A stretch of DNA of 64,000 bases, from the NCBI GenBank assembly GCA_027625915.1, contig JANTQA010000033.1, forward strand, positions 9,858,001 through 9,922,000, given 5' to 3'. Numbering within the stretch: the first letter of the stretch is position 1; the number at the start of each line of letters is the position of its first letter. The notes below the pieces were generated by a model, which was given only the letters and a program-made list of their open reading frames with translations, did no database searches and was not told the DNA's origin. Origin of the DNA: Anaeramoeba flamelloides. Taxonomy: Eukaryota; Metamonada; Anaeramoebidae. The position numbers were made by a program, and so were the translations under genes. Below are positions 4,558 to 51,256 of this stretch, one piece after another.

Positions 4558-6303
4558 TTATAAATTGTTATCTTTATTCAAATCTACGAATTTTGGATTT
4601 TGCTCAATAAAAAAAAAATAAAAAATTAAAAAAACAAAAAATAAGAATAAGAATAATATTACATTTTGTGTGCTAAAATCCGCATTGTGTTCAAGTAAAA
4701 AATCAACAAATTGCTCATTTAAATCATATTTTTTTGTTAATTCATGTAAAGGTGTGTTTTGCTTATGATTCATTGCATTAATATTTGCCCCCTTTTCAAC
4801 CATCAGTCTTACGTTTTGTAAATCTATTTCGTTGTTGATGTAATAGTGTAAAGGGCTGTTGCCGAATTGGTCTTCGGAATTTAGATTTGAACCTTGTTTA
4901 ATTAAAAAATTGACCAACTGATGATCAACGTTATCAGATCTGCATACTGCGGATAAAACGGATAAGCCCTGTGGGTTTATGGACTCCAAAATGGCACCGT
5001 TTTCTAAGGCGAACAAGAGAATTTGGGTGTTGATGTTTAATCGGGTGTATAGCAATTGGAAGGGTGTGAATTTCTCCTTGTTTGGGTAATTAAAATCTGA
5101 GCCGTGTAAAATGAGGAGCTGGATTTTTTCGATTACAGGTGTGGACATACATAAGTAATGCAAAGGTGTGTTTAGTTTGTCGTCTATGCCATTAATTTCC
5201 ACTCCCTCGTTAATCAAATATTCCAAGATCATCGGATCTATATCTTCTCTTTCTGTGAGCATATGCAAAACATTTTTTTGATCGTGGAAAGTGGTTGTGA
5301 GAGGTATACCCTTGGAATTAAGCCAAGCCAAAAGCTCAATATTAATGTCCGAATTTTTGAGCAGGTTATAAAAAGGCGAAACTCGTAACTGAAAATTCTT
5401 TGCTAGAAGTTGCTCTGGATTAATCGACGAACCCGATTGGATCAAAAACTGAATCAATTGTAAATTGGGGTTGCTTTTCTCGAAAACCAAATTTAATGCT
5501 GTTTCTTCGTCATAATTAACACCATTGATATCGATCCTCCCACTTTGCACCACGTTGCTGATCAGCGTGATTGGCAGCGATTGTAAAGAACAAAGGTAAT
5601 GTAATATGTGCTTGTTATTGATTGTAATTAAATTGTATTGCACTAGCTGCTCCTCGAGCCAAAAAAAGAATGTCGTAATATCGTAGCCCTTGGTGACTGT
5701 GAAGTTCAGGCTCTGTTCCAAGACCCTCATATTGTTTTTTTCTTCAAATTCCTTCACTTGCTGGAATGCTCTTTCTTCAATTATAGCACCCGATGCTTGA
5801 AGATGCTTGATTAGGTTGATTTTTGGGTTTCTTTCTCTTAACAAATGCTTCATTAAAGTTTGGTTGTCACTCGATTGTGTATTGATGTCTACCAAACTTG
5901 GTTTGGCTCCGTGTGCAATAAAGAGTTTGATTAAATCATAGTTGTGTTTCTTTTTATTCAGCAGCAGTTGAAGAGGCAGCTCCTGACTTCTGTTGTAAGA
6001 GTTAAGGTCGATATCTAAAGCGACGATTGTACTGACCATATCGGCATTAAAATCCCCTTTAAGCATCTCACAGAATGGATCAATTATGTTTTTTGGATCA
6101 ATTTTTTTAAGATCTGCTCCTATATACAACAGGTAATTGATCGTATCTTTATCAGGGTTTTTCTGTGCTAAAATAACTTCAAGTGGTGTTAATCCTGCAC
6201 GATCCTTATAATTTACATTTATTCGATTGATTGCATTTTTTACAAATTTGAGTCTTCCGTCGTTAATTGCATTTCTTTCCTTTCGTTTCAAGAGTCCGCT
6301 CAT
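4558..6303 (-). CDS. Ankyrin-repeat protein, two exons, 561 aa
   Basis: Probably a protein-interaction scaffold. Start: ATG at 6303 (MSGLLKRKERNA). Exon 1 is 6303-4663 and exon 2 is 4602-4558. The 60-nt intron (4662-4603) has a GTAATA donor and a TTGAG acceptor and is phase 0, joining FSTQN to QNPKF and ending DNNL. Ankyrin repeats of about 33-37 residues run from about residue 35 to the end, with consensus pieces such as GLTPLEVIL, NTPLHYLC, NSPLHYYI and NTPLHELT, each followed by an FLIxxGAxIN-like turn. Central repeats are degenerate. No other domain, signal peptide or kinase is seen. The intron length is a multiple of three and has no stop, so it can be misread as coding; its translation is an improbable Phe/Leu-rich run. 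The partner and pathway cannot be told from sequence. Confidence 0.85.
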   Translation of the reverse strand: MSGLLKRKERNAINDGRLKFVKNAINRINVNYKDRAGLTPLEVILAQKNPDKDTINYLLYIGADLKKIDPKNIIDPFCEMLKGDFNADMVSTIVALDIDLNSYNRSQELPLQLLLNKKKHNYDLIKLFIAHGAKPSLVDINTQSSDNQTLMKHLLRERNPKINLIKHLQASGAIIEERAFQQVKEFEEKNNMRVLEQSLNFTVTKGYDITTFFFWLEEQLVQYNLITINNKHILHYLCSLQSLPITLISNVVQSGRIDINGVNYDEETALNLVFEKSNPNLQLIQFLIQSGSSINPEQLLAKNFQLRVSPFYNLLKNSDINIELLAWLNSKGIPLTTTFHDQKNVLHMLTEREDIDPMILEYLINEGVEINGIDDKLNTPLHYLCMSTPVIEKIQLLILHGSDFNYPNKEKFTPFQLLYTRLNINTQILLFALENGAILESINPQGLSVLSAVCRSDNVDHQLVNFLIKQGSNLNSEDQFGNSPLHYYINNEIDLQNVRLMVEKGANINAMNHKQNTPLHELTKKYDLNEQFVDFLLEHNADFSTQNVILFLFLFFVFLIFYFFFIEQNPKFVDLNKDNNL

Positions 6304-7099
6304 AATGAAAAATTATTTTTTGGAAATTTTTAAAAAAATAAAAAATTAGTGGAATTTCAAATGGTACATTTTTTTTTTGCAGTGATTTTGGCTGATTAGT
6401 TGTTCATTTATTTTGATTTGATTCTTATCAGAACCAAAAAATTTTGTTCTGAAAAATTTGCAAGTAAGGAGAAAAAAAGGATTTTTTGTTTATCAAAATA
6501 ATTTTGTTTTCTTTATCAAATTTCAAGTTCGACTCATTCTTTTCTATTTGGAAAAATTTTTTTTTTAGAACAAATTATTTTTTGAGTTTTTCTTGTAGAA
6601 ATACATGAAAGTTTTGTACATCCTGTTTCGCCAATCCCTTTTCAAGACAAGTTTAAACGACAAGAGTATTTACTCAAAAAAATCTTTCTTATTTTGGTGT
6701 TCTATTTTAAAGACTACACCAAAAATTTCCAACAGTAGCTTACAGTCCAACACAGAGAAAATATTCCCAGATTTTCTCAGCATTTAAGTAAATTTTCTTT
6801 TTTTAACTTTTTTTATTTTCCAACTCAACTGTTAAACTTTCTTTTTGCATGAAATTTTCGCTTTTGAGTTCTGATCAAGTCAAATTATTGTTGTTAATTT
6901 TTACTTTATTTTCTCTTTTTATTTTTAAACTCAAATTGTAATTTGGTTGCATTAATATGTGGAACCACTAAAACAGAAAAAAATTATTCGAATGGTTTTA
7001 AGGTCTAATTCCAAAATAATTTTACCACATCTTCAAATTGAAAAACAAACAAAAAACCTGATTACATACAAAATCTTACTTTTCTTTTAAAGCTTATTT
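6304..7099. other. 5' flank of the ankyrin gene, no gene seen
   Basis: AT-rich sequence that must hold the promoter of the minus-strand ankyrin gene. A 60-codon plus-strand frame near 6605-6787 has no recognisable family or splice context and is not called. Confidence 0.45.
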
Positions 7100-29346: not shown

Positions 29347-32300
29347 TTAATGTTTTTTATGAAGAATTTTCATATTTCTTTTTGTTGTTGTTCTTCTGGA
29401 AGAGCGATTTCTATTCCCCAAATTTTCTTTTTGGTTTCTTCTTTCAGATTTTTGTTTTAAAGTTCTTGCCTTTTTAACTATTTTTTTACCCCCCTTTTCC
29501 ATATTTTTTTCCTCTTCGTTAGCGATGTGAATCTCTTGGGCAGTTAAATTTGAATCTGAATCTTGGTCAGAATCAAAATTAGAATTAGAGTCTGAATCCA
29601 AATCTGAATCCAAATACGAATCTGAACCTGAACCTAAATCTAAATGTGATTTGTTTTTTTGATGTGATTTTTTTTCCAATCTGGATGGTGTTTGGACATT
29701 CCATACCCTAGGTTTTGGTGAATTATTTTGTGGGCTTATGAGAAAGAGATCTGTTTTTTGCTTTTTGGAATCAATTAATGGGTTTTGGTTTTTTGTTTTC
29801 TTTTTTTTTATTGTAATTTTTTTTGAAGAGTAAACTCTCATTGGCAAATTACTTGGAATAGGTGATTTTAATTCAATTGTATTTAATCTCTTTTTATTTT
29901 TTTTTGGAGTTTTTTTAATTTCTTTTTTTTCTGTCTTTTTTTCCTTCTTTTTTTCCTTCTTATTTTCCTTCTTATTTTCCTTCTTATTTTCCTTCTTATT
30001 TATTTTTTTTTTTACATTTTTTTTATTTTTTTCGATTATTTCTGATTCTTCTGACTCCTCTGACTCTTCTGACACACCCGACTCTTCTGACTCTTCTGAC
30101 TCTTCCGACTCTTCTGACTCTTCCGACTCTTCCGACTCTTCTGACTCTTCTGACTCTTCCAACTCTTCTGACTCTTCCAACTCTTCTGACTCTTCTGACT
30201 CTTCTGATTCTTCTGATTCTTCTGACTCCTGGGACTCTTCTGACTCCTGTTTAGTTTTTTTCTTTTTCTTTTTTTTCTTAACGGATTTAGGTTCTATCTC
30301 AATTTCCATTTTTAATTGGTTTGTGTCTTCATCAAAAAATTTTCTTTCTTTTTCCTTTTCCAATTTCTTATCTATCTCTCCCTTTTGATGTTTTTTAAAA
30401 GCCCTTTTCAATGATTTGTTGATACTATTATTGTTTTGAGCCAACAAAGAATTTGATTTTTTAAAAGTAGATTTTTTTGATCTCGATCTCAACATTGGTG
30501 ATTTGAAATCTTTTAATTCGTTTTGTGTGACTCTGGGTGTTTGCATAACCCTAAATGGTGTTTTTAATACTGATTTAGGTGTTTTAGGATTCAAATTTGG
30601 GTTTTGGTTATTTTTCTTTGGTGTTTTTAACAACACATTTCCATCATGATCATTATTTTTTTCAATTTCGATTCCATTTTCGTTTTCGTTTTCATTTTCT
30701 TTTTGAATCATATCTTCATTGGGCATAGTTGATAAACGTCTCTTTTTTTGGTTTTCTCTAATTCTTCGCTGTAATTCCAATGCTTCTTTCTCTTTTAATT
30801 GCATCTGTAATAACATTTGTTGTTCAAATTGTTTTAAATCATATTCCACTTCCTGTGCGAGTTGTTTATCTACAACTAAAATATCTTTAATTTCGTCTCT
30901 ATAGTCTTTCATCAATTCACGTAGATATAGCATCAGATCTTTTAAAAGAGGAGATCTATGTTTTTCAAGAATTCGTTTCAAGCCAATTATTATTGGCACA
31001 ATATTCTCTATAACATTTTTTTTCATTATTTGGGAAAGTATATTACTCTTGGCAATATTTAAATTATTGACAACATCTTGTGAATTTTGCTGCTGCTGCT
31101 GTTGTTGTTGCTGCTGGTTTGAACTTTGGCTATCTGAATATTTCATAGCATTCAATTTAATTTCATTTGAAGAAAGAATTGCCAAGGCATCGGAAATTAC
31201 ATCTGTGGCATTATTTAAAGGGATGATATCCTCTGTTACTGCTGCCAAAATTTCGTGACAAAGCTTTGAAATAATTTCAAATTTTTGATTATCACTTAAA
31301 AATTCCAAAAGTGTTTTATAAATATATAATCTTTTATTTTTATTTTTTGGCCCAATTAGGGAAAATAATTGCTTTTCATGTATTGAGTGTTTTAATTTAT
31401 TATAAGTGGGATGATCTAAATAATGATTTAAATAAAAAATCAATTCAACAAAATGAGTGAAAAACAATAAGGGAGTTTTTTGTAACAGGAGTTCGCAAAG
31501 ACAAAATTTTGCAAGTTTGGAAACACGGATATTCTCATCAACCAATGAAATAACAAATTTATAAAATAAAGATCCTTTCCATTTGATATAATCTTCTTGC
31601 AATAAACGAGTTATTAAAGTCACTGTTTGCTTTCTAACAACGACAAAAGGATCTTTAAAGCAATTTGCCATTAAGGGTATATAGCGATCAATTAAAAAGG
31701 TGTGCCTTAAGCAAAGATCACACATCACCACGAGGCAATTGTTTCTAATCATTGGTATTTCTGAATTTTCAATTTCATGTGCAAATACACCAACACATTT
31801 TTTTGCAAGTTGTTGATCAAATAAACACATTTTCCCCAAGGTACCAAAGGCAAAGGTTCGAACCCTTGAAGGGATCGGGGTCCTGCTTGGTAAACTGTTT
31901 GCAATCAATGCTTGAACAGTTGTTTGTAACCGTTGAGTGGTTTTTGTTTCGGAAAAAACAACTATTTCGCCTAAAGTAAAGAGATTTTTTGAAACAAAGG
32001 GCTCATCAATTTCAACAATTTTATTTACCGAATTATTAAGATTTTTCCTATTATTTTTCACTAAAGAAGAAACAGCTGTGGAATTATCATCACCATCCTC
32101 GTCGTCATCATCATCACCTTCGTTGTCGTCTTCGTCATCGTCAACATCATCATCTTCGTCTTCATCTTTATTATTTTTCTTGTTCTTATTAATATTATTG
32201 AAAATTGGCGTAATATTGGAGTTTTTGATTTCATTTTTATTATTTTTAATTAAAGATAAGGGTGAATTGATTAAAGAACTATTATTTTCATCAATATTTT

Positions 32301-35145
32301 TATCATTAAGTGTATTATTTGAAAATGGTGAGGGGGTAACTAATAGACCCTGAACATCCCCCGAGAGAGGATGGGTAAAAACAACATTCCCCAAATTTTT
32401 TGAGCAAATCATTAACAAATCTTCCAAACTTGAAGAAATAATTTTTTGTAATTTTTTTTTATATCTTTTTTTATTTTTCTTTAAATCCGTATTCTTATTA
32501 ATACCGGATTTTCCAACTGATAACGATATATATGTTTTTAAAAAGTAATGTATCAGCCCAACAGTCAATTCGTTAAACTGGGTTAAAATAAAGCATAAAT
32601 CCTTGCTTATTAATTCGATTTGCTCCTTTGTTAATAATTCAGATACAGAAGATAAGACCGATAGATATTGGATAATATAAGTTTTCTCTGAAAAGGAATT
32701 ATTATTTTTGATTTTCTCCCAAGTTTTTAAAATTAAATTTACTTTTATATATTTTCTCAAATATGGAGAGATAATATCAAAAAGTACCCATGCATTTTTT
32801 AGAATATTTGGGTTTTTTTCAAGTAGAATGATTTTTTCAATTGATCTTATTAATTCCTTTTTCAATAAGTTTCTTCTTGAAAGTGTTGCAGAAATTCTTC
32901 TTAAATATTCGATTAATTCCAAATTTAAGTCATCTAATAATTTCCAAACATTTCCATTTCCATTTCCATTTTCATTTTCAGTGTATTTATTAAATTTTTT
33001 TGTAGTTAAATTTTTTGAAGATTTTATAACTCTTGAAAAAATTGTGGAATTGACAAATTCTAAACACTTGTCTTGAACGGTTGGCTCTGTATCAGTGATC
33101 ATCGGTAAAATGGACTCTAAACAAATTTTTGATAAAATTAAATCAGAATTAAATTCAGACAACAATTTTGTTAAACAGATTAATGCCTGTTTACGTATAC
33201 CAACACTTGGATCTAAGCATCTTTCTTGAAATATTTGATAGATTGCTTTTTTTTTTTTATCACTTTCTTGCTGAGTGAAAGGGAAATCAAAATAAAAAAT
33301 GGTTTCTAATAAAGTTAGAATTGATTTTCTTACTAAAGTTTTTTCATCTTTTGCCCTATTTGTCAATAGTTTCATGAATGCTTTAAATTTTACAATATGT
33401 TGTTCTTCTATTTTACCAGTCTCTTCTATTTCTAAACGCTTTTCTTCTTTTTCATTATCATCGTCGTCATTTTCATTTTCATTTTCTTTTTCAATTTCAA
33501 TATCATTTTCATTTTCTTCTTTGTTTTCATTTTCATTTTCTGTTTTCTTTTTCTTTTTCTTATTCTTTTTCTTTTTTTTATATTTAACCTTTAAATTAAA
33601 ATCCAAACCAATTAATTCTAAAGTTTTTTTTTGTAATAAATTTATTGATTCTTTTTCAATATTTGGATCAAAATTTAAATTATCTTTTTTAATTAATGAA
33701 AGTATTTTATAAATATTTGTAATGGCTTTGCTTCTCACTGTGGAAGCCTTATCAGACATTCTTTGAAATAGAGTTTGCAATAATAGTTGAATTCCCAATT
33801 GAGAGATTGAATTTAAACATGGGCTTGTCAATATTTTTAAGCCCAGCTCTGTGGCTAGAACTCTCATTGAAACTCTCGTATTCTTTGAAAGGCTTGAAAC
33901 AAAAGACAAAAAATTTGAAATTGTATCGGATCTTAAATGTGATAATATTCTTGTCAAAATTGTTGTCATTTCATTTCGGTACTCTGCTCGGTCGGGGCAT
34001 TTCATTGACATGTTTTTGAGCAGTGCCAAAACACAATTATTGAGGATTTTTTCTTCAATAAAGGCCCTTTCTAATTCAAGCTCTAAAAAGTTGATTGCAT
34101 TTTCTCGTATTTTGATTTCAATAAACGGGATGGTTGTTTCCGATAAAGTTGGAGAGACCGTGCAGAGAAAGTTCTTTAATAAGGATTGCAAAATAGTTGA
34201 AAAGTTTTCTTCTTGTTCTCCGTTCCGAGGATCTAATAAGCGATGAAAAATATTTTTGATAATCTTGCTTGTTTTTGGTACAATGTTTAGTGTCTTCTTA
34301 TTTCTCCTTGCCCTTGACTTCTTTTTTTTTAACGCAACAGTGTCTCCTAATAATTTCCCGTCATTGCTAAATTGACAATTTTCATTGAGCCAGAAGCAAT
34401 TGTTTGAAATCTGAATTAAGACAGAAATTACATACCGATAAATGTCGGGGTGATCCTTTAAATCTAGGCGCTTTAAAAGATCGAAAATTTCGATTAACAA
34501 TTTGTCAATCCATTCCAATTTTAATCCGACGGGTATCAGCTCTTCTTCGTCTTCTTCTTCATCGTTGTCGTCGTCACTGTCATTATTGTTTTTTTCTTTT
34601 TCTTTTTCTCTTTCTCTTTCATCGTTCCCAAGATCATCAAGATTGTCATCATCATTTTCTTCATTGTTATTAGTGCTGTTGCTATTTGTTTTTTTTTTAG
34701 TTGACGATTTCAAGTCTTTCGAAGTGCCAAACGCACCCTGTGACAATTCGTTACTCCACCGTTTCAATAACGAAAATATTTGTTGAAATAAGATTGGCTT
34801 GAAAATGTTATAAGAATTTGATCCATATTGGTTCAATAATAACAAATAAATGTTTGCTCCTAAATAAACAATGTTTTGCTCCTTTGTCGAAATGAGATCC
34901 TTCGAGATCAAGACAATGTTACGTGGGATGATCGACTCTTTTGTACACAAATCCCAAAACGTTTCTTCACTTTTTTCATCTTTCTCTTTCCACACTTTTA
35001 ACACACGTACAAAGTCAGATAACAAATCGACAGAATAATGGTTTGTTATTGATCGGATCGCCTCTAAGTCGCTTTTTTCATGAAGATCCGATAAGCAAAG
35101 CTCTTGTAAAATTGTGCTTGTGTCAGTAACTAAGACTTGGGACAT
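29347..35145 (-). CDS. Condensin-2 complex subunit D3 (NCAPD3-like HEAT protein)
   Basis: Non-SMC HEAT-repeat subunit of condensin II, acting in mitotic chromosome compaction (family role). It is 1,932 aa if started at the ATG at 35,145 (MSQVLVTDTS); the frame is open 43 codons further up, but that part is Phe/Lys/Asn-rich UTR-like sequence. No intron is needed. HEAT segments run to about residue 1,430. The diagnostic block is at about residues 1,165-1,330: MCDLCLRHTFLIDRYIPLM, DPFVVVRKQTVTLI, VDENIRVSKLAKFCL, FFTHFVELIFYLNHY, HEKQLFSLIGPK and ISKLCHEILAAV, matching the animal/plant D3 order. Human D3 is about 1,500 aa; the excess comes from Lys/Glu/Asn/Asp insertions, a poly-Gln run and a long C-terminal tail. 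The tail has TP/SP sites (LLKTPKK, VLKTPFRVMQTPR), consistent with CDK control, a Ser-Glu-Glu tract (about 1,635-1,702) and basic clusters. Confidence 0.9.
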   Translation of the reverse strand: MSQVLVTDTSTILQELCLSDLHEKSDLEAIRSITNHYSVDLLSDFVRVLKVWKEKDEKSEETFWDLCTKESIIPRNIVLISKDLISTKEQNIVYLGANIYLLLLNQYGSNSYNIFKPILFQQIFSLLKRWSNELSQGAFGTSKDLKSSTKKKTNSNSTNNNEENDDDNLDDLGNDEREREKEKEKNNNDSDDDNDEEEDEEELIPVGLKLEWIDKLLIEIFDLLKRLDLKDHPDIYRYVISVLIQISNNCFWLNENCQFSNDGKLLGDTVALKKKKSRARRNKKTLNIVPKTSKIIKNIFHRLLDPRNGEQEENFSTILQSLLKNFLCTVSPTLSETTIPFIEIKIRENAINFLELELERAFIEEKILNNCVLALLKNMSMKCPDRAEYRNEMTTILTRILSHLRSDTISNFLSFVSSLSKNTRVSMRVLATELGLKILTSPCLNSISQLGIQLLLQTLFQRMSDKASTVRSKAITNIYKILSLIKKDNLNFDPNIEKESINLLQKKTLELIGLDFNLKVKYKKKKKNKKKKKKTENENENKEENENDIEIEKENENENDDDDNEKEEKRLEIEETGKIEEQHIVKFKAFMKLLTNRAKDEKTLVRKSILTLLETIFYFDFPFTQQESDKKKKAIYQIFQERCLDPSVGIRKQALICLTKLLSEFNSDLILSKICLESILPMITDTEPTVQDKCLEFVNSTIFSRVIKSSKNLTTKKFNKYTENENGNGNGNVWKLLDDLNLELIEYLRRISATLSRRNLLKKELIRSIEKIILLEKNPNILKNAWVLFDIISPYLRKYIKVNLILKTWEKIKNNNSFSEKTYIIQYLSVLSSVSELLTKEQIELISKDLCFILTQFNELTVGLIHYFLKTYISLSVGKSGINKNTDLKKNKKRYKKKLQKIISSSLEDLLMICSKNLGNVVFTHPLSGDVQGLLVTPSPFSNNTLNDKNIDENNSSLINSPLSLIKNNKNEIKNSNITPIFNNINKNKKNNKDEDEDDDVDDDEDDNEGDDDDDEDGDDNSTAVSSLVKNNRKNLNNSVNKIVEIDEPFVSKNLFTLGEIVVFSETKTTQRLQTTVQALIANSLPSRTPIPSRVRTFAFGTLGKMCLFDQQLAKKCVGVFAHEIENSEIPMIRNNCLVVMCDLCLRHTFLIDRYIPLMANCFKDPFVVVRKQTVTLITRLLQEDYIKWKGSLFYKFVISLVDENIRVSKLAKFCLCELLLQKTPLLFFTHFVELIFYLNHYLDHPTYNKLKHSIHEKQLFSLIGPKNKNKRLYIYKTLLEFLSDNQKFEIISKLCHEILAAVTEDIIPLNNATDVISDALAILSSNEIKLNAMKYSDSQSSNQQQQQQQQQQNSQDVVNNLNIAKSNILSQIMKKNVIENIVPIIIGLKRILEKHRSPLLKDLMLYLRELMKDYRDEIKDILVVDKQLAQEVEYDLKQFEQQMLLQMQLKEKEALELQRRIRENQKKRRLSTMPNEDMIQKENENENENGIEIEKNNDHDGNVLLKTPKKNNQNPNLNPKTPKSVLKTPFRVMQTPRVTQNELKDFKSPMLRSRSKKSTFKKSNSLLAQNNNSINKSLKRAFKKHQKGEIDKKLEKEKERKFFDEDTNQLKMEIEIEPKSVKKKKKKKKTKQESEESQESEESEESEESEESEELEESEELEESEESEESEESEESEESEESEESEESGVSEESEESEESEIIEKNKKNVKKKINKKENKKENKKENKKEKKKEKKTEKKEIKKTPKKNKKRLNTIELKSPIPSNLPMRVYSSKKITIKKKKTKNQNPLIDSKKQKTDLFLISPQNNSPKPRVWNVQTPSRLEKKSHQKNKSHLDLGSGSDSYLDSDLDSDSNSNFDSDQDSDSNLTAQEIHIANEEEKNMEKGGKKIVKKARTLKQKSERRNQKENLGNRNRSSRRTTTKRNMKILHKKH
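30040..30245 (-). repeat. Ser-Glu-Glu coding microsatellite in NCAPD3
   Basis: A 9-nt unit encoding S-E-E (reading GAGTCAGAA-like on the minus strand) is repeated about 20 times, with a few EL, GV and Q variants. It occupies about 65 residues of the C-terminal tail and creates a strongly acidic stretch with potential casein-kinase-2 sites. The near-identity of units implies recent slippage. Confidence 0.85.
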
Positions 35146-38100
35146 AAAATGGTTTTTCTTTTTTGTATTTTTTTGTATGTTTTTTATTTTCCTTGGTGTA
35201 GTTATGAAGCTATTTTGATTATTTTGAATTTCACCAAAACAATTAAAAAAAAAAAAAATCAAAACCAAAAACAAAAAAATAATTTTTGGTCGATTTCAAG
35301 AGTTTAATTTTTGAATTTGGGATTATTAATCTTTATTATATTACTATACACAAAAACACATCAATTTTTCTTGGTTTTTATCATTTTATTAAACAATTTC
35401 GAAAACTTTAATGTACGTTAAAATTTATTTTAAAAAAAATTTCTTTTAGATTTATCAAAATCCTGGTTTGTTTTTTGGATGTTTGTTGTTAATTTGAAAG
35501 AACATTTAAAAATTTGGTTAATCTTAAACCATTATTTTTTTGAAATATGGACCAATTACTCAAACCTTGAAGACACCAAACAAGAATTGAATGAATTTCC
35601 AAATATTAATTCACCTCACGGAATAAAACATTTTCCAAATACGAGAAAAAAATAAATTAAATTCCAATTTTATAATCATTTGTTTGATTTTGGATCCTGT
35701 ATTTTAAAGACGACTGTGAGGAGTGTTTCTGAAATTTGGAATTTGTCTTTGTGTTTGTTAAGTTACTGGTGTATGTTGGCTTTGGTAATTATTTTTGAAA
35801 ATCTGCATTATTTTTTGTTTAACTCCAAAAAAATATATGAAATTCTTCTAGTTTTCCGCTACGATCAAAAATTAGTTCCACTCACAATGAATATGATTCC
35901 ACCAAAATTAATATTGTGAAATTTGATTTCTTTTATTCTAAAAAATTTAAATTACAAAAAAAAAATATCGATCATCAATTACTAAAAAATTCAATTAAAA
36001 ATAAGTTTAAAAAAATTCTCAATGAAAAAAATCAAATTTTTAAAAAAAAAATTACTTGTTTCAAATTTTAAATTTCCAAAGGTTCAAATTTCTTCAATTT
36101 AAAACAAATATGTTTTCAGTAAAAAATAAATTGAATTTAATTTACTCCAATTTGAGGTTATTTTGTAACCCTTTATATTCCACAAAGCAATAATTTTGGG
36201 TATTTCTTTTGATAAAAATAACTCATTTGTGAAAATATAAAAAAAAAAATCTTAAATGAAAGTAAAAAGTGCCAATGAGCAACACTTCAAAAGAAAGATT
36301 GTTGTTTTCAAAATTATATATTCTAACCCTTCTAATTGGAAATTGAGGGACTTGTTACTCTTTACCTTTTTTATAAAAATGTCCTCTTTTCTATTGTTGG
36401 TTTTTGAAATCTACAAAGTATCACTTGTTGGGCTTTTTTTATTTGTTATTAAGTATTCATAATAATTACAATTCTTTTTTTTCCATTTCCGATAATTATT
36501 TTTCCACCATAATAACTCTGCACTTTTGAGTTCGCTTTTTTTATATTTAATTATTATATTTGATATTAAAGAAGGTTTTGATTGAATTATTTACCTTTTA
36601 GTCTCATATTTGTGCTTTTTTCACCTATTAAAAGTATTAAAAACAAAATATCACTTTATAAATTATTTTTAAAAAGTTGGTATAAAGTTTTACAAAAGAT
36701 AGAAATTAATTGCCTTAATTATTTCGATTTAATGGTCATTTTTTCTTGAAAAAACCAACATTTTACATATTATGTATAAATTTTTTTTAATAATTTAATT
36801 TTAATATTTGTAGATCAAAGTTCATAATATACTATAAAATTAATAATAAACGATAAAATTATGCAAGAATTTGGAAGGAACAAAAATAGTGATAAAACCC
36901 TAAAATCAAAAACATCTATTCAAATAAATGACTCAGAAACCCGTTTAGAAAAAGAAAAACATTTAGAAAACGATTTTTAAAGAAGGAAAATTTTAAATGA
37001 AAAAAATAAAACTTTTTTTTTTAGAACAAAAAAAAAAAAAAAATCAACTAAAGTTGTTAAACTCTAAATCATCAAACCAATAATTAGTAAATTTTCGTTT
37101 GGATTAGTGTTTTTAAACGACTCAAAACTATTTTAACACTATCAAAACAAAAATAAATAAAAATGTAAAAGTGTATTAAAAAAATAAATCCACATTCTGA
37201 AAGGATAATTTCTAAAAACGAAGCAAAAATATATCAAGTCTGAATTTCACAATATAAAAGAAAATATAAACCCAAAAAAAAAAAAAAAAATCAACACACA
37301 TGTTTTGAAAACATCTCAGATAAATTAAAATTTCTAAAAAAAAAAAAAAAAGACGAAAATATTATTTTGAGACGATAATTGGAAATTATAAGAGCCATTT
37401 AAAATAATTTAGACAAAATTTAATAATAAAAAAAAAAAATATATTGAAATATAAAAAAATTGGAAAATTATTAAATATAATAATAATAGCAATAAGCAAT
37501 AGTTTGATAGATGAAAATTTATAAAATAAAATTGCAAACTTTTACAAAATGAAAAAGAATAGAACAAAATCAATGATTTCAATGAATTTTTTTAAAATTT
37601 AAAAATAAAAAAAAAGTATCACAAAACAAATTTTTCAAATTTGTTGGTTTAACTTCGATATTAACAATTCGAAAATTTTCAGATAACTTAAATAAGCTTT
37701 TTTAGGTTTATGATAAGATTTTATGAAAAATAAAATAGTATGATTGATGCAAAAGAAACATACTAATTTAGAAATAGATATAAACAATGATCATTTTTAT
37801 CGAAGAGGTTCATGTGGTAAAGAAAACCAAATCCTTCTACTTATATTAATCCAAAAAAAAATAAAAAAAAAAAAAAAAAAAAAATACTAAAAGATAATAT
37901 CTTTGAGATTTTTCAAAATAATGTCCCTTTGTTTATGTAATAATTAGTTAATGATAAAGAAAATTATTATTATTTATTACAATTCATAAAAAAATATTTA
38001 GAAATTATGGAAATATCTTCAAGTAATATGGAGTAATATAGAGTGTCTAGGTTTTCTTGGGGTTTTCTGAAAACTACCTAAGATTTTTCAGAATTCAATA

Positions 38101-40189: not shown

Positions 40190-43100
40190 TTAATCTTGGT
40201 GTGATTTTTTCTCAGAACCATTTTGTAAATAATTACTTCTTAATAACAACTCTTGGTTATTTTTAGGTTCTTCCAATTTATCAAAAAGCAATTGAATTTG
40301 CTTTACTTTTTGGAAATTATACCTTCTAACATGATAGGATTTTACGTCTTCGATTACATTGAATAGCAATCTTCTTTTTGTTAAATGTATTCTACCACCA
40401 ATGTCGTTCTGTGATCCTTTATTGAATTCTCTCATTAAGCCAACATACATACCATGGTAGGGTATTGATCCACTTGTAACTTTCTTTAAGAACTTTCTAC
40501 CGGAAGCATAATTTGAATCTGTATTTGCAATTTTTTTTAAACGAGTAAAGATTTTTAAACTATTCTTGGGCACTTCACTCATATTTGCATCTAGTATTTG
40601 AATAGATTTATGCTTAAGGGCAGAAACTAGAGCGAAGAGGCTTTCCAAGTTACAAAAATTATATAGATACTCACCAATTTTAATTATTCTCGTTATTTCC
40701 TTTACCCGCTCTCTCGGCTTTTCATGCTTCAATATTTCCCAAACAAAAAAGCTTAATTGTTGATTAAATATATTTTTCAGTTTAAATAAATTTGGTGAAT
40801 GTTCAACTGAAAATTTATTTGAAATACCTGCTGCGAGCAGTTCTGTAGAATCAATTTTTAAAAATAATTTATGAATATATAATGTCAGTTGCCTCGCAAA
40901 TTCTAATTCATCAATTTGTGATAAATGGAAATTTTTTGAAAAAAGGTTTTTTGGTACTCTTGGCTTTGGTGGCGGTTCGGGAAATTGTGTTTTGTTTTTG
41001 CTCTTTTGAGAACTATTTTGTTTTTTTTTTTGAATCAATTTTTGTAATTGCTTGGGATGTGAAGGATGAGATTGCGCCATTACTTGCACACTGAAATTTT
41101 CAATCATTCGAATCATCGTCTGTGTAAATTGCCCATAATATTCTAAAATCCATGTATGAAGTACGGAAAAGACCCTCAATTGAATCAATTTTTTTCTTTT
41201 ATCCCATTCCTTTTCTTTTATTCCTTCTCTGGTTTCTGGTACTTGATATCTTTGGAAAAGTTTTAATAATAAATATTCCGAAGTCATAAATGATCTATGA
41301 GTCGTCAAAAATACTCGAATAAATTCAGAATCTATTTTTAATGTTTATTTTTTTTTTTTTTTTATTTTTAATTTTTGTTTTTAGTTTGTAATGCAAATAA
41401 GAATATGATAAATTTATATATAAAAAATTAAATAAATCACTTTATTATAAAATTAAATTATTTATTTTAATATATGGTGTTTTTTTTTTTCTACTTATTA
41501 TAAAATTGCTATTTATTTTTTTTTTTTAGTCCCAAACTTTTCCTTGGCGAAAATTTTATGTCAATAATTTTCGATAACAACATATAAGAAAGAGATTAAA
41601 ACGCTTAAAAGTTTAAGATAATATTTTAGTTGCTGTGGAAATATTTTGAGAAATCATTACATTATTATTGGCAAAGTTTTAAAATTTTCTGATCTTCTTA
41701 TTTTCAATTCTAATGAAGTAAAATAAAAATTATTTTACAAACAAAATTTGAGTTTAAATATGATATTTAAAGTTATTTTACAAGACTTTAACAATTTTTT
41801 TTGCGACGTTGTTTCATTGATAACAGTGATATTAGCGAATATCACAATTTCAAAATATTTAAACAAATATTTTGGTTCAGGGAACCATAGCATTTGTTCT
41901 TTAGTAGCCAATAAAAAAAGTGTTTTATAATTTGGGGAAAGTTTCGAAAAGGAATAAATTTCATTTCTTTATTGAAAAAAATGTCGAAATACAAATATTG
42001 TTTTTTTTTCTAAAATAGAAAAAAATCAATCTCATTTTTAAAAATTGTTTAATCCCTTTTTTTCTTCAAAAAAAGAAAAAAGAGAAACTAAACCATTTAT
42101 AGAAGATTTCAAAGAGAGAAAAAAACAAATGATCATTTAAGAAAAGAAAAAAAAAAAAAAACATTTTTTTTTGCTTGGTCAAGTCAAGAAATTTTCGAGG
42201 AATGTTCAAATTTAGTTGTTAATAACGTCAGGTTCATGCGAGGTTTTTATGTTTGATCTTTTTCGAGAATTGACTGACAAATGGAGAATAAAAGAGGAAA
42301 TAGATCTCATTGAAATGATGAACGATCTAGTTTGTATCTGTAAAATTTAAACCAGATTTTGTATCCAATGGATGAAAATGTAAAATTTAATTTCAATGTT
42401 TTTCAGATTCCATTTATCGAAAAAAAAAAGATCATTTGAAAAATAAGTTCTTCAAAGTATCTTTAAAAATAGCAAATTAGTTTGTTTTGTTTAAATTTGT
42501 TTATTTTTATTTTTTTTTTGTTGTGTAGAGTTAGAATTTGAGTTGCAAAAAATAAAATAGCACCTCATATTGTTTCATTTGTTCAACAATCACCTTTTAT
42601 AATTCTTCGTCTTGGATCCACTTCCAGACTCAAAATAATGAGATTGTTCTAGTGCTAAGATGATATCTATCGTCATTCTTCGAAGAACTTCACAATATCA
42701 TCTTATATCACTTCAAATAATCTCATTTTTTTTGTTCTTCCAAGTCAAACTAAGATTATAACAGGGAGATTGTTTCCAAATCGAATCAATAAACACAATT
42801 ATATTATATCTTATTAATCATTATGTTAGATTGATTTCATTCTATAGTTTTTGAGAAAAAAAATTTGAATAATGAAATAAACTTTGTTTCAGTAAGAGTT
42901 CGTTATGTTTTCGTAGATTCCCGTCGAGTACCTAGCTTTTCCAGAATTCAAAAGAATAGAGAAAAATCAAAGATTTCACTCAAATTTTTTTAAATTCTGG
43001 AAAATCTAACGGCGGTTTTTTTTAATTTTTGAAATAAAAGAGTAAAATTTTTGAAATTTTCAATTGTATTTCTTAAATTAAAAAAAGCCTAACAGCGCTT

Positions 43101-46100
43101 TTCTCATGATTTTCTGTATTTGATTCAAAAAATCTATTGATTTCCGTTAGGTTTTCTTGAGTTTTCTGTTTATTTGGAAAATCAATAGATTTTCTTGAGG
43201 TTTTTTTATAATTTTAAATTTGATTAGAAAAATCTATTGATTTTCGTTAGGTTTTTTTGAGTTTTCTATTTATTTAAAAAATCAATAAACTTTCGTTAGG
43301 TTTTTTTTACTTTAGAAATAAACCGAAAATTTTAATAAATTTTAGGTTTATTTCTAAAGTAAAAAAAACCTAGAACACTTCACAAATAAAATAGAAAACC
43401 TCAAAAAAACCTAGAACACTTCACAAATAAATAGAAAACTCAAAAAAACCTAACGAAAATAGATAGATTTTTCTAATCAAAAACAAAAAATATCTAGAAA
43501 CCTTATGCACTCTAAGATACTGGTACAATTTTTTTTTTTTATGATTTATTAATGTTTAGATCTTCTATAAAAACAAAACAAGGCTTTTATTATGAAATAA
43601 TGATTACACTATTGTACCCTCAGTTTATTTTGGCAAATGTAAAATTTGTTTCAATCAAAGGTGTCCCAATAATTTTTTTCAAAATATCAATTAATTTTTT
43701 AAAAAGTGTCTGTGAAATAATGAAGAGGTAATAAGTAGAATAGTACACGTCAGTGAAGATTTGATATCCATGTTAGCCATATCTAATAAATTTGTATATT
43801 TTCTTAAAAAATTTCAAAACCCAAAATTCTTATTTCCCTATTGAGAAAAAAAAACAACAAGGTTTATTTTGATCTTCAATTGAAGATTAAAGAAATTTCC
43901 AATAGAAATCAATAGGTTTTTTATCAAAGTATTTCCAATGTTTCAACTGCCTTCGAGCAACACAGTTTTTACTTTGTAGCTCTAGGTCAACTAAAACTTT
44001 TTTTACAAAGCAATTACTTAACAATGGAAATTAGAAAAAATGAAAAAAGTAAAAATGATTTCTATTTTGAAATTTACTCAAATAATTTTTTTTTCTTTTT
44101 ATATACATTCAAACTCTTTAAACTCTGTGTAATTCCTACATTAAAACTTGCCACTGTTGTATATAGTTTCCTAAAGTACCGTAGAGCGTTATCAAGTGTC
44201 TAGGATGCCTAGTTTTTTAAAAATTCAAAATAATTGAGTAAAATGATTGATTTTCTTTCATTTTTTTAAATTTTGAAAAACCTAACGACATTTTTCTACA
44301 CTTTAAGTTTTTATTTTGAAAACACATACAACCCATCCATTGAAACTGGGAACAGTACCATATAGTGCCTAGATTTTTTTTATTCTGGGTTTTCTCTTTT
44401 ATTCAGAAAATCGATTGATTTTCAAAACAAACAGAAAAATCGAAAAAAACCTAATTACAGTTTTTTTTTTTGTTTAAAAATACATTGATTTTATAACCAA
44501 ATCTCAAACCCAAGAAAAGTTAATCACCCTTTTCAAGAATTCAGATGTATTGAATTCAATTTTTGGATTTACTTTATTAAATTTTTTTAAATTTTGGAAA
44601 ATCTAACTCATTTGACTGGAAAACAGTTTATATTTTTTTACGATGGATTACCTTCTACAAATTTTTTATTTTATTTTATGATTGTGAGTTTTTGAAAGAG
44701 TTTTTTTTTTTCATTAAAGAGATTAATAGAAAAAAAAATACTCTTGAATTTAATATATTTATTTATTTTTCATCAAAATCTTTTTTAAATCAAATAATTT
44801 GATAAAAAGGTAATCAAAAATAAAAAAACAAAAAAGTCTTGAATTTCAAAAAAAAAAAAAAAAAAAAAAGCTTACCAGAAGCTTGCCACCAAGTTAATCT
44901 TTCAATTAATTTATTAATATTGGCTGAAACAACGGTTTCTAGGATATTTCTTGAGGAATTTGAACCTAATTTTTTTTTTTCCTTTTCATCAAAAACAATA
45001 TTGTCCTTATTATCCTGTGGTTCGTCCCATATTGACACATCACTACTATCCAATCGTAAAGTTTCCATTTCTTCTTGTTCTTCATCGATGCCCTTATCTG
45101 ATTCTCTTCGAAATGATGTTCTAAACAACATGTCATTTGTTTTTAATACTAATCTAACCAAAGAATATAAATCACTTTCAATTTTATTTTCATTTTTAAT
45201 TAATGATTCGGGAACTTTATTTTTATTTTAATTTGTTATTTTTTTTGTATTTAATTTTAAAATAATAATAAATTAAACGGAGGAAATTAATAAATATTGA
45301 AAAAAAATAAAATAATAATTCTAAGAAAAAATAAGATGGATTATTTCTAAATCAACGCAAAGTGATTTCCAAAAAAGCTGGTAAATTTTTATTTGAAAAT
45401 ATCTTTATTAAACTCAATTCTAATATTACTCATTTAAATCTCCAAAATAATCATTCACAACCATTTCTTGATTTTTAATAATAATTTAATTTTTTGTTAG
45501 TATAGCGTTACGTTAATAAAAGTTTGATAAGGTTTCTGTTCTCAATTTTATATGATATTTGTTTAAGGGTGAAAATATGTGATTATTTTTTTCTTTTTGA
45601 TATAAAAAATCATTTTCATAACTTTTTTAATCTCGACAAAATTTTCAAATAGAATTGAAAATATTTAACTGTATTTAATTGTTTAAAAAATCATTTGTAC
45701 CCTTTCCATATTTCCAGTTTTTTATTGAAATTGGTGGTACATTGTTTTCTCCAAAAAAAAGTGCAATTTTTTTGAATCATTTTTTATAAATAAATCGATG
45801 AACAGTTTTTCTAATAAATATCTCACAGTATGCTCTGATTAAATTAGTATTAAAATTTCTCTGAATTTGATATAACCTATTTACCAATAGAACCACTACC
45901 AAAAATTGATTTTTTCTGAAATATAAAAAAAAAAATACCCCACTTTTTTGGAAATACCTGTCGTTATTTGAGTGAAATTGAGAAAATAAGCAATATATTT
46001 TTCTTGATAGAGTGATATTTATAGCACCCAGATTGAAAAATATTTTGCTTGTTGTTGAAATAATGGGTTAAATAGTGTGATTTATTCTATTTTGAAATGT

Positions 46101-46497
46101 GAGTATCTTCAATGAAAAAAAATTAATAAAAAATATATGAAAAAAAAAAAAATAGAAAAAATTCTGAAAAGTTTTTTTTTTCATTTTTTTTAGATCATTA
46201 AAGCTAGACGAATTTTTAAATTCAAATAAAAGTATTAAAAGTAATTACTCTCAACTAAAAAATTATTTTTTTCTAAATTACAACATTTTTAAAAAGTTAT
46301 TTTCTTCACCATCTTTAAACTCTCAAAATAAATAACACCATCCAATAACAACACTTTTGGATTCAATTTTTTTTTTTTTAATAAAAAACATAAATAGTTA
46401 ATTAAGAATTAGACAAAATTCACATTTATTCTATCCATCTGTCTCTTCTATTTTTTATATTTAGAAACTTTAACGAAAAACTCAACCATTTATTTCT

Positions 46498-46538
<41 letters not shown>

Positions 46539-47399
46539 CAATAATACTCATAATCAGGTAAGTATTATCTAACAAAGATCTTTTTTTCAAGAAATAACCA
46601 ATATAAATATTCCTAGGAAAAAAGGTTATTTTTTATCATTTTTTTAGCTTAGCTTTCAAAAAAATGATAACTCAAATAAAATTAGTTGATGGTATCTAAC
46701 CTTTTGATTGATCAATAATTATTATAGATTTTTAACAAATTTACCAATACATTTTTTAGTTTTGCTCTTTTGCTCATCTCCAAAAATTTTAACAATTCTT
46801 GATTTATTAGTTTTGATAATTATTTATTCTTTTGTTTTGTGAATATTGTTATTTATAAATGATTGATAACATTTCAATTAGTGAATGGTTCTAATTTGGT
46901 ATTACCCAGATAATTTATTTAATAAGATTTTTTTTTTCAAAAATTGAATTTTGGTGTGTTAAAGATTTGGAATTGGAGTTTAAATCAATCAAATTAAAAA
47001 CTATTTTTCAGAAATCTTTATTCACCTTAAAATTCTTTAAATAAATTAAATAAATTTTCCTTTCAAGTTTAAATTCAGAGAAATTGATAAAAAAATTCCC
47101 TTTGAGATTCATCATTGTTTAATATTTTTTTTTTTTTTTTTTCTTCATTGCTCTTTTGTTTTATTCCAATTTAAAAATTTGAAACAATTGATATTCATTA
47201 ATTTATGAAGTAGTTTTATTGGAAAATGGTTGTGTTTGGTGTTTATTAAAATATTTAAAAGTAAACTCTTTTTCAGTCAAAGGGGCCCAGTTTTATTGAA
47301 GAAATGGAAGACATTCTATGAGTTTAATTCATTACTCTTATCAAACTAAAATTTTCAATTTTTAGATCAGAATCATTTTTTCTCATTTTGTAAAATTTT

Positions 47400-47447
<48 letters not shown>

Positions 47448-50400
47448 CAAAGAAAAAAAAATGTTTGAAAAACGAAATAAACATTAAGAAAAGTTAAGCT
47501 TTGTATGTTCTTTTAAAATTCATACATTTACAAGTAAAAAATCTTATTATCAACGATTTTAATTTCCTAAAGAAATTGAGAATTTTGCACGAGACGTTCC
47601 AATGAATGGGGCCCAAAAAATTTTTTAACATTTTTTTTTTTTTGAAATTTATGGTTTGTTCAGGGGTTTCTTTTATAATTATGGACTCTTATATGAAGTT
47701 TATTGTTTCTCGTATTTCTAAACAATCTAAGTTTGGTTGATTCTTAAAAATAAAGTGACTTTTTCATTTTTGGCTGGGCCCCTTTGAGTGAAATGGAGTT
47801 TATTTTTAAAAAAATTCTATTTTTCAACAAGCAACAATTTACATTGTTTTTGAATCCCAGTGAAATAGGTTGTTATTAATCATATATATATACATATATG
47901 AACTTTTTTTCTTTCAAAATTGGCCAACATTTTTTTCAAATATCAATTCTTTTTAATAAATTAACCATTTGAAGATTAAATTAGAAATAAGTTGAATAAT
48001 ATCCATCAAAGAAGAGTTGATATGTGTCTGAAAGAAATGAATTAATCAATATATTTTCTTAAAAATTTCAAAACTCAAATTCTTAGGTACCTATTGAGAA
48101 AAACAAAAGATGTTCATTTTGATCTTCAATTGAAGATCTAAAAAAAATTCTAATTGAAATCAATTATGATTTCTCAATAATCATTTTTATTGTTTCAACA
48201 ACATTAGAATAACACATTTTTACCAAGTGACTATTAGATCCTGCAATAAAAAAAAAATTGCAAATGAATTAGGTTTCTTAAAAAAATAGAAAAATGAGCA
48301 AAAATGTGAAAAAATGATTTCAATTTTGAAATTTACAAAAATAAATTTTATTTTACTAATATCCATTCAAGGCCTTTAAACACGAGTGCTTCGCTCCCTA
48401 AAACCGGGGCCCGTTGACTGGAAAATGGTTTATATAATATTTCAGTTTCAGTTAGCACTTATTCTTTTTATTTTTTCCCCCCATTTTTTTCCTGGTTATA
48501 TTTTCTTTATATTGGAAAGAAGAGTTACAAAATAAAAAAGATCAAGTGTGTTACTTGCTAATTGCTAATACTGAGATACTGAAACAGGATAGTGTGAGCA
48601 ACTTGAAAATGAAAACGAAAAAGCAAAGGATAAAAAATATCAAAGGTTTAAAGCATATCTTTGAAAAAAGAAAAAAGAAATTATAAAAATTAAACAAGGA
48701 TCTCCAAATGAACAATCATGATCAAATTTCAAATTAAATCAACCAAAAGTATTTTTGCTGTGATTTTGGGTGTTCTTAATTAAAGTATAGTATTGGTTTT
48801 TTTTTTTTGATTTTTTACCAATTTTTTATTATAAACTCTTTTTAAATTTCTTTCTTTTTTTCTTGTGATTTTTTTGTTTTTGCTTTTGAACCTTAAAGAA
48901 AATTTGGGTATGCATTTCCTTTGAATAATCGCTGAATCTAGGATTTTACACTTAAATTACCTTTGGAAATTCAAGTATAAGGACATTTAAATTGTAATTT
49001 AAACTTCTTCAATAATAATAAAACTTTGTCTTTTTTTAAAATTATATATTTATAAATAATATCTTCATATTAAATTACATGGATGATATTATATATACAT
49101 AACCCCTCATAAATAAACATTTCACACTTGTTCATATTCTGGTTATTACCTTTAAATTTCAAAAAAAAAAAAAATCATATGATTAAAAAGATTATTCTTA
49201 TTTTTTGAGTGGTAATAAAAGTTTTTGATATATATCGATTATGTTAAAAAAATTTTTTATTAGGTGGGTAAGTTGTTGATTAAAATATCCACGAGCTGTA
49301 AATTATAAAAAAAGAAAAAGAAATAATTAATATAAGAAATAATTAAATGACAATGAATAAAAAAAAAAATTAATAGCTACCTGTAATTGAAAATTTTTTT
49401 TTTAAAAAATCCACCAAAGTTTTTTTCCCTTCTTTTGTATAGTGTTGTATAATTAAAGATAATATAAAATTTGAATTAATTAATTCAGACTTTTCTGATT
49501 TGGAAGTCTGATAAAATCTTGAAAAAGATAATTTTTTGGTAAAAACATTGAGCCTTTCTCTCATGTGTAAAATTTTTGGGTTTCTTCGCATTAAAATAGG
49601 TATCCATTTTGTTTTATTTTTTGAGAATGCTACAAGTGGTAGTAATGGTTTGGTTTGCTCAATTTTTTTTTCTGTAAATGCCAATTCTTTTTTCGATTCC
49701 TCTAATTCCTTTTCTAAAAATTTGATTTCTTTTTTTAAATTCTCACTATTTGTTCCAATTGTTGACGGTGACGATAATTGTTTGATCAAGTTCTTTCTTT
49801 GTAATTCCAAATAAGTTATTAATTTTTCTCTTTTGGCGATTTTTTGGTTTAGTTTTTCTTTAGAGTTTAAACAATTACAATAAGACAAAAAAAAAAAAAA
49901 ATTTTTTTTCAAATTAAAAGTTAATAATGTTATCGGAAAAGTTAAGATCATGGCTCGAAAGAATTGAGTTGTGTTATTAAAGTTGGGTTTTAAATTGATT
50001 TTATTATTACTCAAATAAAGAGTAGTTGTTCAGAAACGAAAAAAAAAAGGATTGTGTTGTTAAATAAAATTTTTTTTTCTTGTTATTCAAAAAAAATAAG
50101 AATAAAAAAGAGAAAAAAGAAAACCCAGATAAAAGAAAACAAAAACTGTACCAGAAAAAAAATGAAAAAAAAAATAGCTCAAAAAAAGATGAAGAAGGGG
50201 TTGAAAATGGAATAACCAAAAGGAAGAAATAAATTATTATAAAAAAAAAAATTTTGAACAAAAAAAGAAAAAGAAAAAGAAAAAGAAAAAGATAAAGAAA
50301 AAGAAAGTGAAAAAGAAAAAGAAAAAGGATTTCTTACGAATTTGTCTTTCGCCTGTTGACTTGGCGAATTTTAAATCAATTTGTAAGGAGTCGTTTCGTT

Positions 50401-51256
50401 CTTTTAGTAATTTCATTTTCTGTTTTTCGTTCGATAAACTTTGTTCTGATTTTTCTAATTTCTTATTCACTTTATTGACGTGTTCAATTTTTGGTTGTAT
50501 GGCTCCCTTGTTTGTGTCACTTTGAATTTTTTCCAAGCCACTTTCAAAATACTCGATTTGTTGATCTGTTTGTTGGATTTCGTTTTTCACCAATTCTAAT
50601 TGCTGAATAATTTTCTCAAGTTGTTGTTCTTCTTCGATTTCTTGTAAAACGGAATTGTCGATCCCGTTTTCTATTAATTTGGTTTCTAAACTTGCAATTT
50701 CTTTTATTAATTGTTTTTGATCTTGTACCAAAAAGTCTAATGATTTGCTGTGCAAATAGACGGTCCTTTGAAGGGACAGATCTGAAAAGTTACCCATGTT
50801 CCTTAATGAATCACGAACATTGATTGAATTTGTTTTTGATTTTGTTTTTGATTTGTTCAGCGTTAAATATTCCGAACGGATAAATAAGCCATGGTTAGGT
50901 TTACATTTGAAGTATTCTACATCTCCAACTGTTCCGTTATTATTTCCTTCTATTAATGGGATGAAAGTTTTTTTTTTATTTTATTTTATTTTATTTGTTA
51001 GTTTTTTGTTGTGCAAAAGACGACAATAAATTCAATTGTTTTTTTAAAATTTCTAAAACACGTTTGTCATTTAAGTGGATATTGTTTGGAATCAAAACCA
51101 AAAAAAAAATTCTTTTGTCAGGAAACGAAATTTACTTGGTTTAGATAGTTCAAGCCCAACCCAATTCCCCTCATCAAAATCGGTTGTTCCTATAAAACGA
51201 ATTTTTGCCTTTAGACCATCAATAATCAATTGTTTTCCGATTTCAAAATTAGCCAT
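40190..51256 (-). CDS. CAP-Gly / coiled-coil / LisH / RasGEF_N / RasGEF protein, 5 exons, 896 aa (predicted)
   Basis: Predicted Ras-family guanine nucleotide exchange factor with a microtubule plus-end/EB-tail-binding CAP-Gly head. Exons: 51,256-51,136; 50,949-50,338; 49,857-49,381; 45,214-44,876; 41,331-40,190. All four introns are GT-AG and phase 1; the exons sum to 2,691 nt. CAP-Gly (about 1-70): IRFIGTTDFDEGNWVGLEL, then across the junction KGNNNGTVGDVEYF and KPNHGLFIRSEYL (usual GKNDG is GNNNG here). Coiled coil about 105-330. LisH about 373-400: ILSLIIQHYTKEGKKTLVDF. IESDLYSLVRLVLKTND matches the segment following LisH in amoebal RasGEFs. RasGEF_N includes TTHRSFMTSEYLLLKLFQRY. CDC25 domain about 650-880: DELEFARQLTLYIH, NLESLFALVSALKH, GSIPYHGMYVGLMREFNKG. 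Exons 1-3 and 4-5 are separated by 4.2 kb, so two adjacent genes remain possible. Confidence 0.72.
42637..42726. repeat. Imperfect inverted repeat (90 bp)
   Basis: AATGAGATTGTTCTAGTGCT and AAGATGATAT on the left are mirrored by ATCATCTTATATCACTTCAAA and TAATCTCATT on the right, arms of about 30 bp. It may be the core of a small MITE; no clear target-site duplication was identified. Confidence 0.55.
43297..43372. repeat. Perfect 28-bp inverted repeat, 20-nt loop, within intron 4
   Basis: The left arm (43,297-43,324: TAGGTTTTTTTTAC, then TTTAGAAATAAACC) and the right arm (43,345-43,372) are exact reverse complements over 28 bp. In the unspliced transcript this would fold as a strong stem. It is embedded in a field of related but imperfect inverted words. 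Confidence 0.85.
43600..44180 (+). repeat. Family K dispersed repeat, copy 1 (intron 4)
   Basis: Shares TTTTCTTAAAAAATTTCAAA, CTATTGAGAAAAA, TTTTGATCTTCAATTGAAG, ATGTTTCAAC and an AACACAGTTTTTAC-like block, in the same order and orientation, with 47,860-48,400 in intron 3. No terminal repeats are evident. Confidence 0.6.
46640..46990 (+). repeat. Partial relative of the family F interior
   Basis: Shares AAATTAGTTG, GGTATCTAACCTTTTGAT, CCAAAAATTTTAACA, AGTGAATGGTTCTAATTTGG and AATTTTGGTGTGTTAAA with 25,290-25,620, but the CAGTCTTCC terminal repeats are not found around it. Confidence 0.6.
47262..47802 (+). mobile_element. Family C MITE, copy 3 (best-preserved ends)
   Basis: The ends TAAACTCTTTTTCAGTCAAA + GGGGCCCAG and GCTGGGCCCCTTTGAGTGAA + ATGGAGTTTA are inverted repeats with TA borders. 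The GGGGCCCAG core is the GC-rich hallmark of the family. Internally it contains a T47 homopolymer at 47,401-47,447. It lies inside intron 3 of the RasGEF gene. Confidence 0.8.
47401..47447. repeat. T47 homopolymer
   Basis: Uninterrupted run of 47 T within the family C element, the longest homopolymer in the window. The true length may be affected by sequencing. Confidence 0.9.
47860..48400 (+). repeat. Family K dispersed repeat, copy 2 (intron 3)
   Basis: Same order of blocks as the intron 4 copy (TTTTCTTAAAAATTTCAAAA, CTATTGAGAAAAAC, TTTTGATCTTCAATTGAAGA, TTGTTTCAACAACA). Because the copies are in the same orientation on either side of exon 4, they form direct repeats around it. Confidence 0.6.
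48480..49020 (+). repeat. Family B element, copy 5 (intron 3)
   Basis: Contains TTCTTTATATTGGAAAGAAG, GTGTTACTTGCTAATTGC, ACTGAGATACTGAAACAGG, TGAACAATCATGATCAA, CTTAATTAAAGTATAG and the decayed tail TTGTAATTTAAACTTCTTC. Confidence 0.7.

Follow-up and report, generated by a model that had tools for sequence, protein, structure and literature searches.

Communication between microtubules and Ras is generally regarded as indirect, and no exchange-factor domain is known in the CLIP-type CAP-Gly proteins. RasGEF_N and CDC25 (RasGEF) domains occur together in SOS1, SOS2 and RasGRF1, with SOS having a DH-PH part where the protein described here has a CAP-Gly head. The same pair is found in Dictyostelium, whose 25 RasGEF genes form a large family, some members of which also carry a LisH motif, according to the main text of the paper describing them (PMC1273635). 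Here we analyse a gene of the metamonad Anaeramoeba flamelloides that lies on the minus strand at positions 40190–51256 of a 64,000-nucleotide stretch of DNA (the window; positions 9,858,001–9,922,000 of contig JANTQA010000033.1, assembly GCA_027625915.1) and whose predicted product joins a CAP-Gly domain to RasGEF_N and CDC25. In our reading, to which we give a probability of roughly 0.6, this is one gene of a CAP-Gly/RasGEF family of at least 56 members, and its own branch of the family probably encodes catalytically dead scaffolds or decoys.

One gene across a 4.2-kb intron

The window gene consists of five exons that join into a single reading frame of 896 amino acids (aa), with a coding sequence of 2,691 nucleotides (nt) including the stop, all exons open and all splice sites intact. 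Its introns measure 186, 480, 4,166 and 3,544 bp, and all four are GT-AG and phase 1; a preliminary description of the window, which had proposed five exons, phase-1 GT-AG introns and a frame divisible by three, is confirmed in each respect. Exon 1 (51136–51256, residues 1–41) supplies the start codon and the first half of the CAP-Gly domain, while exon 2 (50338–50949, residues 41–245) supplies the second half (GNNNG...YFKC...GLFIR) and a first coiled-coil segment. Exon 3 (49381–49857) carries a second coiled-coil segment and a helical motif at approximately residues 371–402. Beyond the phase-1 intron 3 (45215–49380), exon 4 (44876–45214, residues 404–517) encodes a linker (ESDLYSLVRL..., DVSIWDEP) and the start of RasGEF_N, and exon 5 (40190–41331, residues 517–896) encodes most of RasGEF_N, the CDC25 domain, the C-terminus and the stop. 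Three close copies elsewhere in the genome (C57, C61 and C39) have matches to all five exons in the same order, with protein identities of 89–94% in exon 3, 78–87% in exon 4 and, apart from the split match in C57 described below, 82–85% in exon 5.

The length of intron 3 raises the question of whether a CAP-Gly coiled-coil gene and a neighbouring RasGEF gene have been wrongly joined across 4.2 kb, a reading that we rejected, and to which we assign almost no weight, on the basis of shared intron positions, a short intron 3 in a paralog and the genome-wide pairing of the two domains. The comparison used 20 paralog loci (L031–L050), drawn from CAP-Gly matches and not at random, which together with the window protein make up an alignment of 21 rows. 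The paralogs were modelled by automatic spliced alignment, with either the window protein or L032 as the guide; in these models coiled-coil introns are unreliable, and several of the models end early. When the window protein is aligned to L032 with splicing allowed, all five exons reappear, separated by phase-1 introns at residues 41, 245, 404 and 517, and here intron 3 is just 126 bp long. Across the paralog loci, phase-1 introns recur at residue 41 (20/20), residues 243–249 (10/20), residues 402–413 (15/20) and residue 517 (2/20). The distance from CAP-Gly to CDC25 is ~3.4 kb in both L033 and L034, and the same domain order is repeated throughout the genome, as detailed below. By its predicted structure the window locus is a single gene across the 4.2-kb intron, in support of what the preliminary description had argued.

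Two further observations concern the long introns. Introns 4 and 3 have repeat stretches in common (43796–44094 and 48049–48353), which are 75–89% identical and lie ~4.25 kb apart, so that part of the length of both introns may derive from this shared repeat. Intron 4 additionally contains a 64-nt inverted repeat (43212–43275 and 43425–43488).

Domain content of the window protein

A Pfam search of the 896-aa model, a check that the preliminary description had suggested, matched CAP_GLY at residues 13–67 (E = 5.6e-20; 71.5 bits against a curated cut-off of 26.5), RasGEF_N at residues 498–596 (E = 1.8e-21) and RasGEF at residues 660–837 (E = 1.7e-33), the last over profile positions 1–181 of 181. 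When RasGEF_N and CDC25 were aligned to SOS2, the alignment spanned nearly the whole query (E = 2.9e-30). Between the two ends of the protein, the heptad signal over residues 95–325 was above that of all 200 shuffles (z = 7.6), and three of five paralogs likewise beat all shuffles. The CAP-Gly, coiled-coil, RasGEF_N and CDC25 parts of the originally proposed domain string therefore stand.

The LisH motif placed between the coiled coil and RasGEF_N does not stand in the same way. Pfam LisH (PF08513) had no match in either the whole window protein or the segment alone, and its six matches in a genome search all fell outside the paired CAP-Gly/RasGEF loci. LisH_TPL matched 2 of 15 family members (best E = 0.031), and a profile search of the segment against solved structures returned seven matches, the best being SGT2 at E = 0.71, which does not confirm LisH. 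The helical pattern of the segment is conserved across the family alignment, yet no profile confirms it as LisH, and we therefore keep 'LisH-like' as an unconfirmed label.

An expanded CAP-Gly/RasGEF family

We searched the 254-Mb assembly (76 contigs) with the CAP-Gly profile and obtained 101 matches, which merged into 65 gene clusters. A cluster was counted as paired if a CDC25 domain followed it on the same strand no more than 25 kb downstream. The 150 scored RasGEF matches alone pair 28 of the 65 clusters, against an expectation of 0.48. With 179 RasGEF loci, 55 of the 65 clusters are paired, at distances of 3.4–16 kb and with 55 different RasGEFs, against an expectation of 0.57 and a single pair in the control directions; L040 adds a 56th pairing. 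The 29 loci added to the 150 came from searches with family proteins, with CDC25-covering matches picked by hand, and so the 55/65 figure is enriched on purpose and returns to 28/65 without them. All RasGEF counts are minima: 150 of the 304 candidates were scored, and the distinct loci number 179 overall. Outside L031–L050 the pairing is based on coordinates and not on gene models.

That 56 of the 65 clusters repeat this domain order is far beyond chance. Fusion to RasGEF is the rule among the CAP-Gly genes detected in this genome, and the window gene belongs to a family that has expanded to 56 genes or more, which could not be visible to the preliminary description with its single window. Among the nine unpaired clusters, seven have an uninterrupted CAP-Gly (L001–L007), two of which, L004 and L007, resemble tubulin cofactors B and E when inspected by eye; the other two (C33:8524782 and C9:7052410) are undecided. 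Separately, LisH-like exons were seen near RasGEF matches without a detected CAP-Gly, for example at C32:3258296, C33:3145260, C13:2067350 and C1:9781644. Such loci could be family members that have lost the CAP-Gly domain or ones in which it is too divergent to be detected.

A conserved CAP-Gly pocket

CAP-Gly residues F27, W32, G34, Y53, F54, C56, G61 and F63 are invariant in all 21 rows of the alignment, and N44 is present in 19. The top-scoring solved relatives of the window domain are those of CLIP-type proteins (CLIPR-59, CLIP4, restin/CLIP-170 and CLIP-115; best E = 6.1e-18, 1whj), with dynactin-1 more distant (E ~1e-11). In six recent paralog pairs, the ratio of nonsynonymous to synonymous substitution rates (dN/dS) for CAP-Gly was 0–0.17 in five and undefined in L033/L034, which have no changes there. 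The same pairs gave 0.16–0.43 over residues 65–330 and 0.04–0.15 from residue 330 onward, this last stretch covering 117–546 aa, as several loci are cut, with the whole CDC25 domain spanned by L033/L034 alone. Related paralog pairs are under purifying selection.

An altered catalytic helix in the window branch

The SOS2 alignment sets PYHGMYVGLMREFNKGS (residues 807–823 of the window protein, encoded at 40412–40462) on PFFGIYLTNILKTEEGN, which is SOS1 928–944 by the residue numbering of two papers (PMC9814687 and PMC8623491). In the simulations reported by the second of these, SOS Thr935 touches Gln61 and Ala59 of Ras and Glu942 touches Ser17 and Ala18, and RasGRF1 retains both residues as Thr1184 and Glu1191 (PMC8623491). 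Relative to SOS1, the window protein has G814 for T935, R817 for L938, K821 for E942 and S823 for N944, and so lacks the Ras-contacting Thr and Glu that SOS1 and RasGRF1 have in common. Its row is also without the signature residues RL..T, DL and GL.NF, which most paralog rows retain.

These changes are in part common to the close copies. A pattern taken from residues 815–822 (L-x-R-E-F-x-K-G), which covers the 938 and 942 positions and stops short of that of Thr935, is found within exon 5 of all three, so that Arg at 938 and Lys at 942 are common to the window protein and its close copies. Only these three exon-5 matches count, because genome-wide the pattern had 21 matches against 30 in a reversed control. 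Ten of the 21 family rows reach the Glu942 position (two of them, L033 and L034, near-identical), which is acidic in seven (L033, L034, L037, L042, L046, L047 and L050) and non-acidic in three, with Lys in the window protein and L032 and Ser in L040. In a tree, the window protein groups with L031 and L032 in a single clade (support 100/100), within which L032 is flagged as a long branch.

With the helix altered at Ras-contacting positions and the Lys common to the close copies, this branch of the family has probably become a catalytically dead but conserved pseudo-exchange factor (pseudo-GEF). The idea in the preliminary description that a CAP-Gly head would tie Ras activation to microtubule ends is, for the window protein, unsupported as it was put, in view of the changes at Thr935, Leu938, Glu942 and Asn944, of which the Arg for Leu938 and the Lys for Glu942 recur in the close copies. 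We consider it rather unlikely that the window protein is instead an active RasGEF with an unusual helix, its specialised Ras having co-varied. The CDC25 profile is matched over its full length, exon 5 is conserved in the close copies, and the Ras superfamily is very large (150 scored of 1781 first-look candidates, by a model that also matches 12 of 14 prokaryote controls), leaving room for a co-varied partner; these points are opposed by the reversed charge at the Glu942 position, the missing Thr935 and the loss in the window row of RL..T, DL and GL.NF.

Proposed role of the family and points against it

For the family as a whole, we propose that the N-terminal CAP-Gly pocket would dock on tubulin or on partners at microtubule tips through their acidic-aromatic tails, that the coiled coil and helical motif would turn the protein into a dimer, and that the C-terminal CDC25 domain would act there on a Ras-like GTPase, such that Ras would be activated along microtubules or at their ends. 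The window protein and its three close copies would most likely be catalytically dead scaffolds or decoys that are still placed through CAP-Gly. Their inactive module may still bind or hold Ras, and may hetero-dimerise with active family members or temper them. A broader and more tentative version, to which we would give somewhat less than even odds, is that a single fusion followed by expansion to at least 56 genes re-wired Ras signalling onto microtubules, with the window sub-branch serving as pseudo-GEFs that regulate active members via hetero-dimers or keep Ras at microtubules.

Several observations weigh against parts of this scheme. The Lys of the canonical GKNDG motif is replaced by Asn or Arg in 19 of 21 rows and kept in one, and in the window protein the core reads GNNNG, which may alter the ligand choice of the CAP-Gly domain. 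An exact alpha-tubulin tail pattern (EEGEEY-stop), the single such pattern tried, found no match in the genome, and allowing one mismatch gave 8 matches against 9 in a reversed control; the EB1 domain model also had no match, with its controls equally silent. The motif change and the missing tail would suit a CAP-Gly domain that binds some other acidic C-terminal tail and links Ras to a non-microtubule scaffold, for which the binding of NEMO by the CAP-Gly of CYLD is a precedent. We regard this as somewhat unlikely given that CLIP-type domains are the top-scoring solved relatives, with dynactin lower down, and that the aromatic pocket residues are invariant in 21 rows.

Further points bear on dimerisation, catalysis and constraint. 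Of the six members tested for a coiled coil, two have a weak periodicity (matched or exceeded by 11 of 200 shuffles in L047 and 5 of 200 in L050), and we infer the loss of catalysis rather than observe it, since SOS and RasGRF1 themselves differ at several positions of the helix. In the wider pair L031/L032, where dS is 1.3, the overall dN/dS is 0.44, with values of 0.54 for CAP-Gly and 0.56 for the part beginning at residue 330, and constraint within the window gene's own clade is therefore not well shown. Exon 5 of the close copy C57 (C57:3523779–3524922) is covered by two overlapping matches in different frames (84% and 74% identity) with a TAA stop, and this copy may be a pseudogene or contain a sequence error. 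Together with the lost catalytic residues, the stop in this sister copy could suggest that the window copy is itself a decaying pseudogene. We judge that very improbable: its five exons are open with intact splice sites, exon 3 is highly similar among the close copies, the CAP-Gly pocket is kept and the altered helix is itself common to the close copies. A conserved pseudo-GEF branch within a CAP-Gly/RasGEF family remains our preferred reading.

Genomic context

The window has a G+C content of 19–31% per 2-kb block. Elsewhere on its minus strand are a 1,982-aa open frame (29347–35295) that contains a condensin-subunit domain (Cnd1, E = 1.4e-26) and, closer to its C-terminus, long acidic Ser-Glu repeats, and a 584-aa open frame with ankyrin repeats (4558–6312). 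Other families are also present in many copies in this genome, including a ribosomal L14-type gene with 16 copies (16 C-terminal among 32 matches) and Fe-hydrogenase with 26 matches above 270 bits among 48. The main text of an Anaeramoeba paper puts A. flamelloides at almost six times A. ignava, with >1100 ribosomal protein genes (PMC11550330).

Comparison with known systems

The preliminary description had called the combination of CAP-Gly and RasGEF one not known as standard, and this agrees with the literature: no paper joining the two in one protein was found in the open literature searched, a scope that excludes subscription papers and sequence-database annotations. As joint search terms they returned cancer reviews only, as judged by titles and the first part of abstracts. 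LisH and RasGEF appear together in one abbreviation list of a Naegleria fowleri paper. A word search of the main text of the Anaeramoeba paper gave no occurrence of CAP-Gly, LisH or GEF (PMC11550330). The same text describes Anaeramoeba microtubules as radiating from an acentriolar centrosome beside the mass that houses the symbionts (PMC11550330), and in this organism the CAP-Gly/RasGEF family is a concrete signalling family to examine. Each such polypeptide would carry both sides of the crosstalk, the microtubule side and the Ras side, in one chain, and there are at least 56 such genes. With the catalytic helix intact in some members and altered in others, they form a natural set of paralogs for asking whether microtubule placement controls Ras.

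The CAP-Gly head of the window protein is most similar to those of CLIP-type proteins, and the protein has RasGEF_N and CDC25 in common with SOS1, SOS2 and RasGRF1, with the difference from SOS that its catalytic helix is without the equivalents of Thr935 and Glu942. The Dictyostelium LisH-RasGEFs differ in that five genes carry LisH alone besides the RasGEF domains, and the term CAP-Gly is absent from the main text of the paper on them (PMC1273635); the LisH-like segment of the window protein, for its part, is unmatched by Pfam LisH. A CAP-Gly head on a RasGEF was not found in the literature searched, and the closest known relatives in kind are these Dictyostelium LisH-RasGEFs, likewise members of a large family built on RasGEF_N and CDC25.

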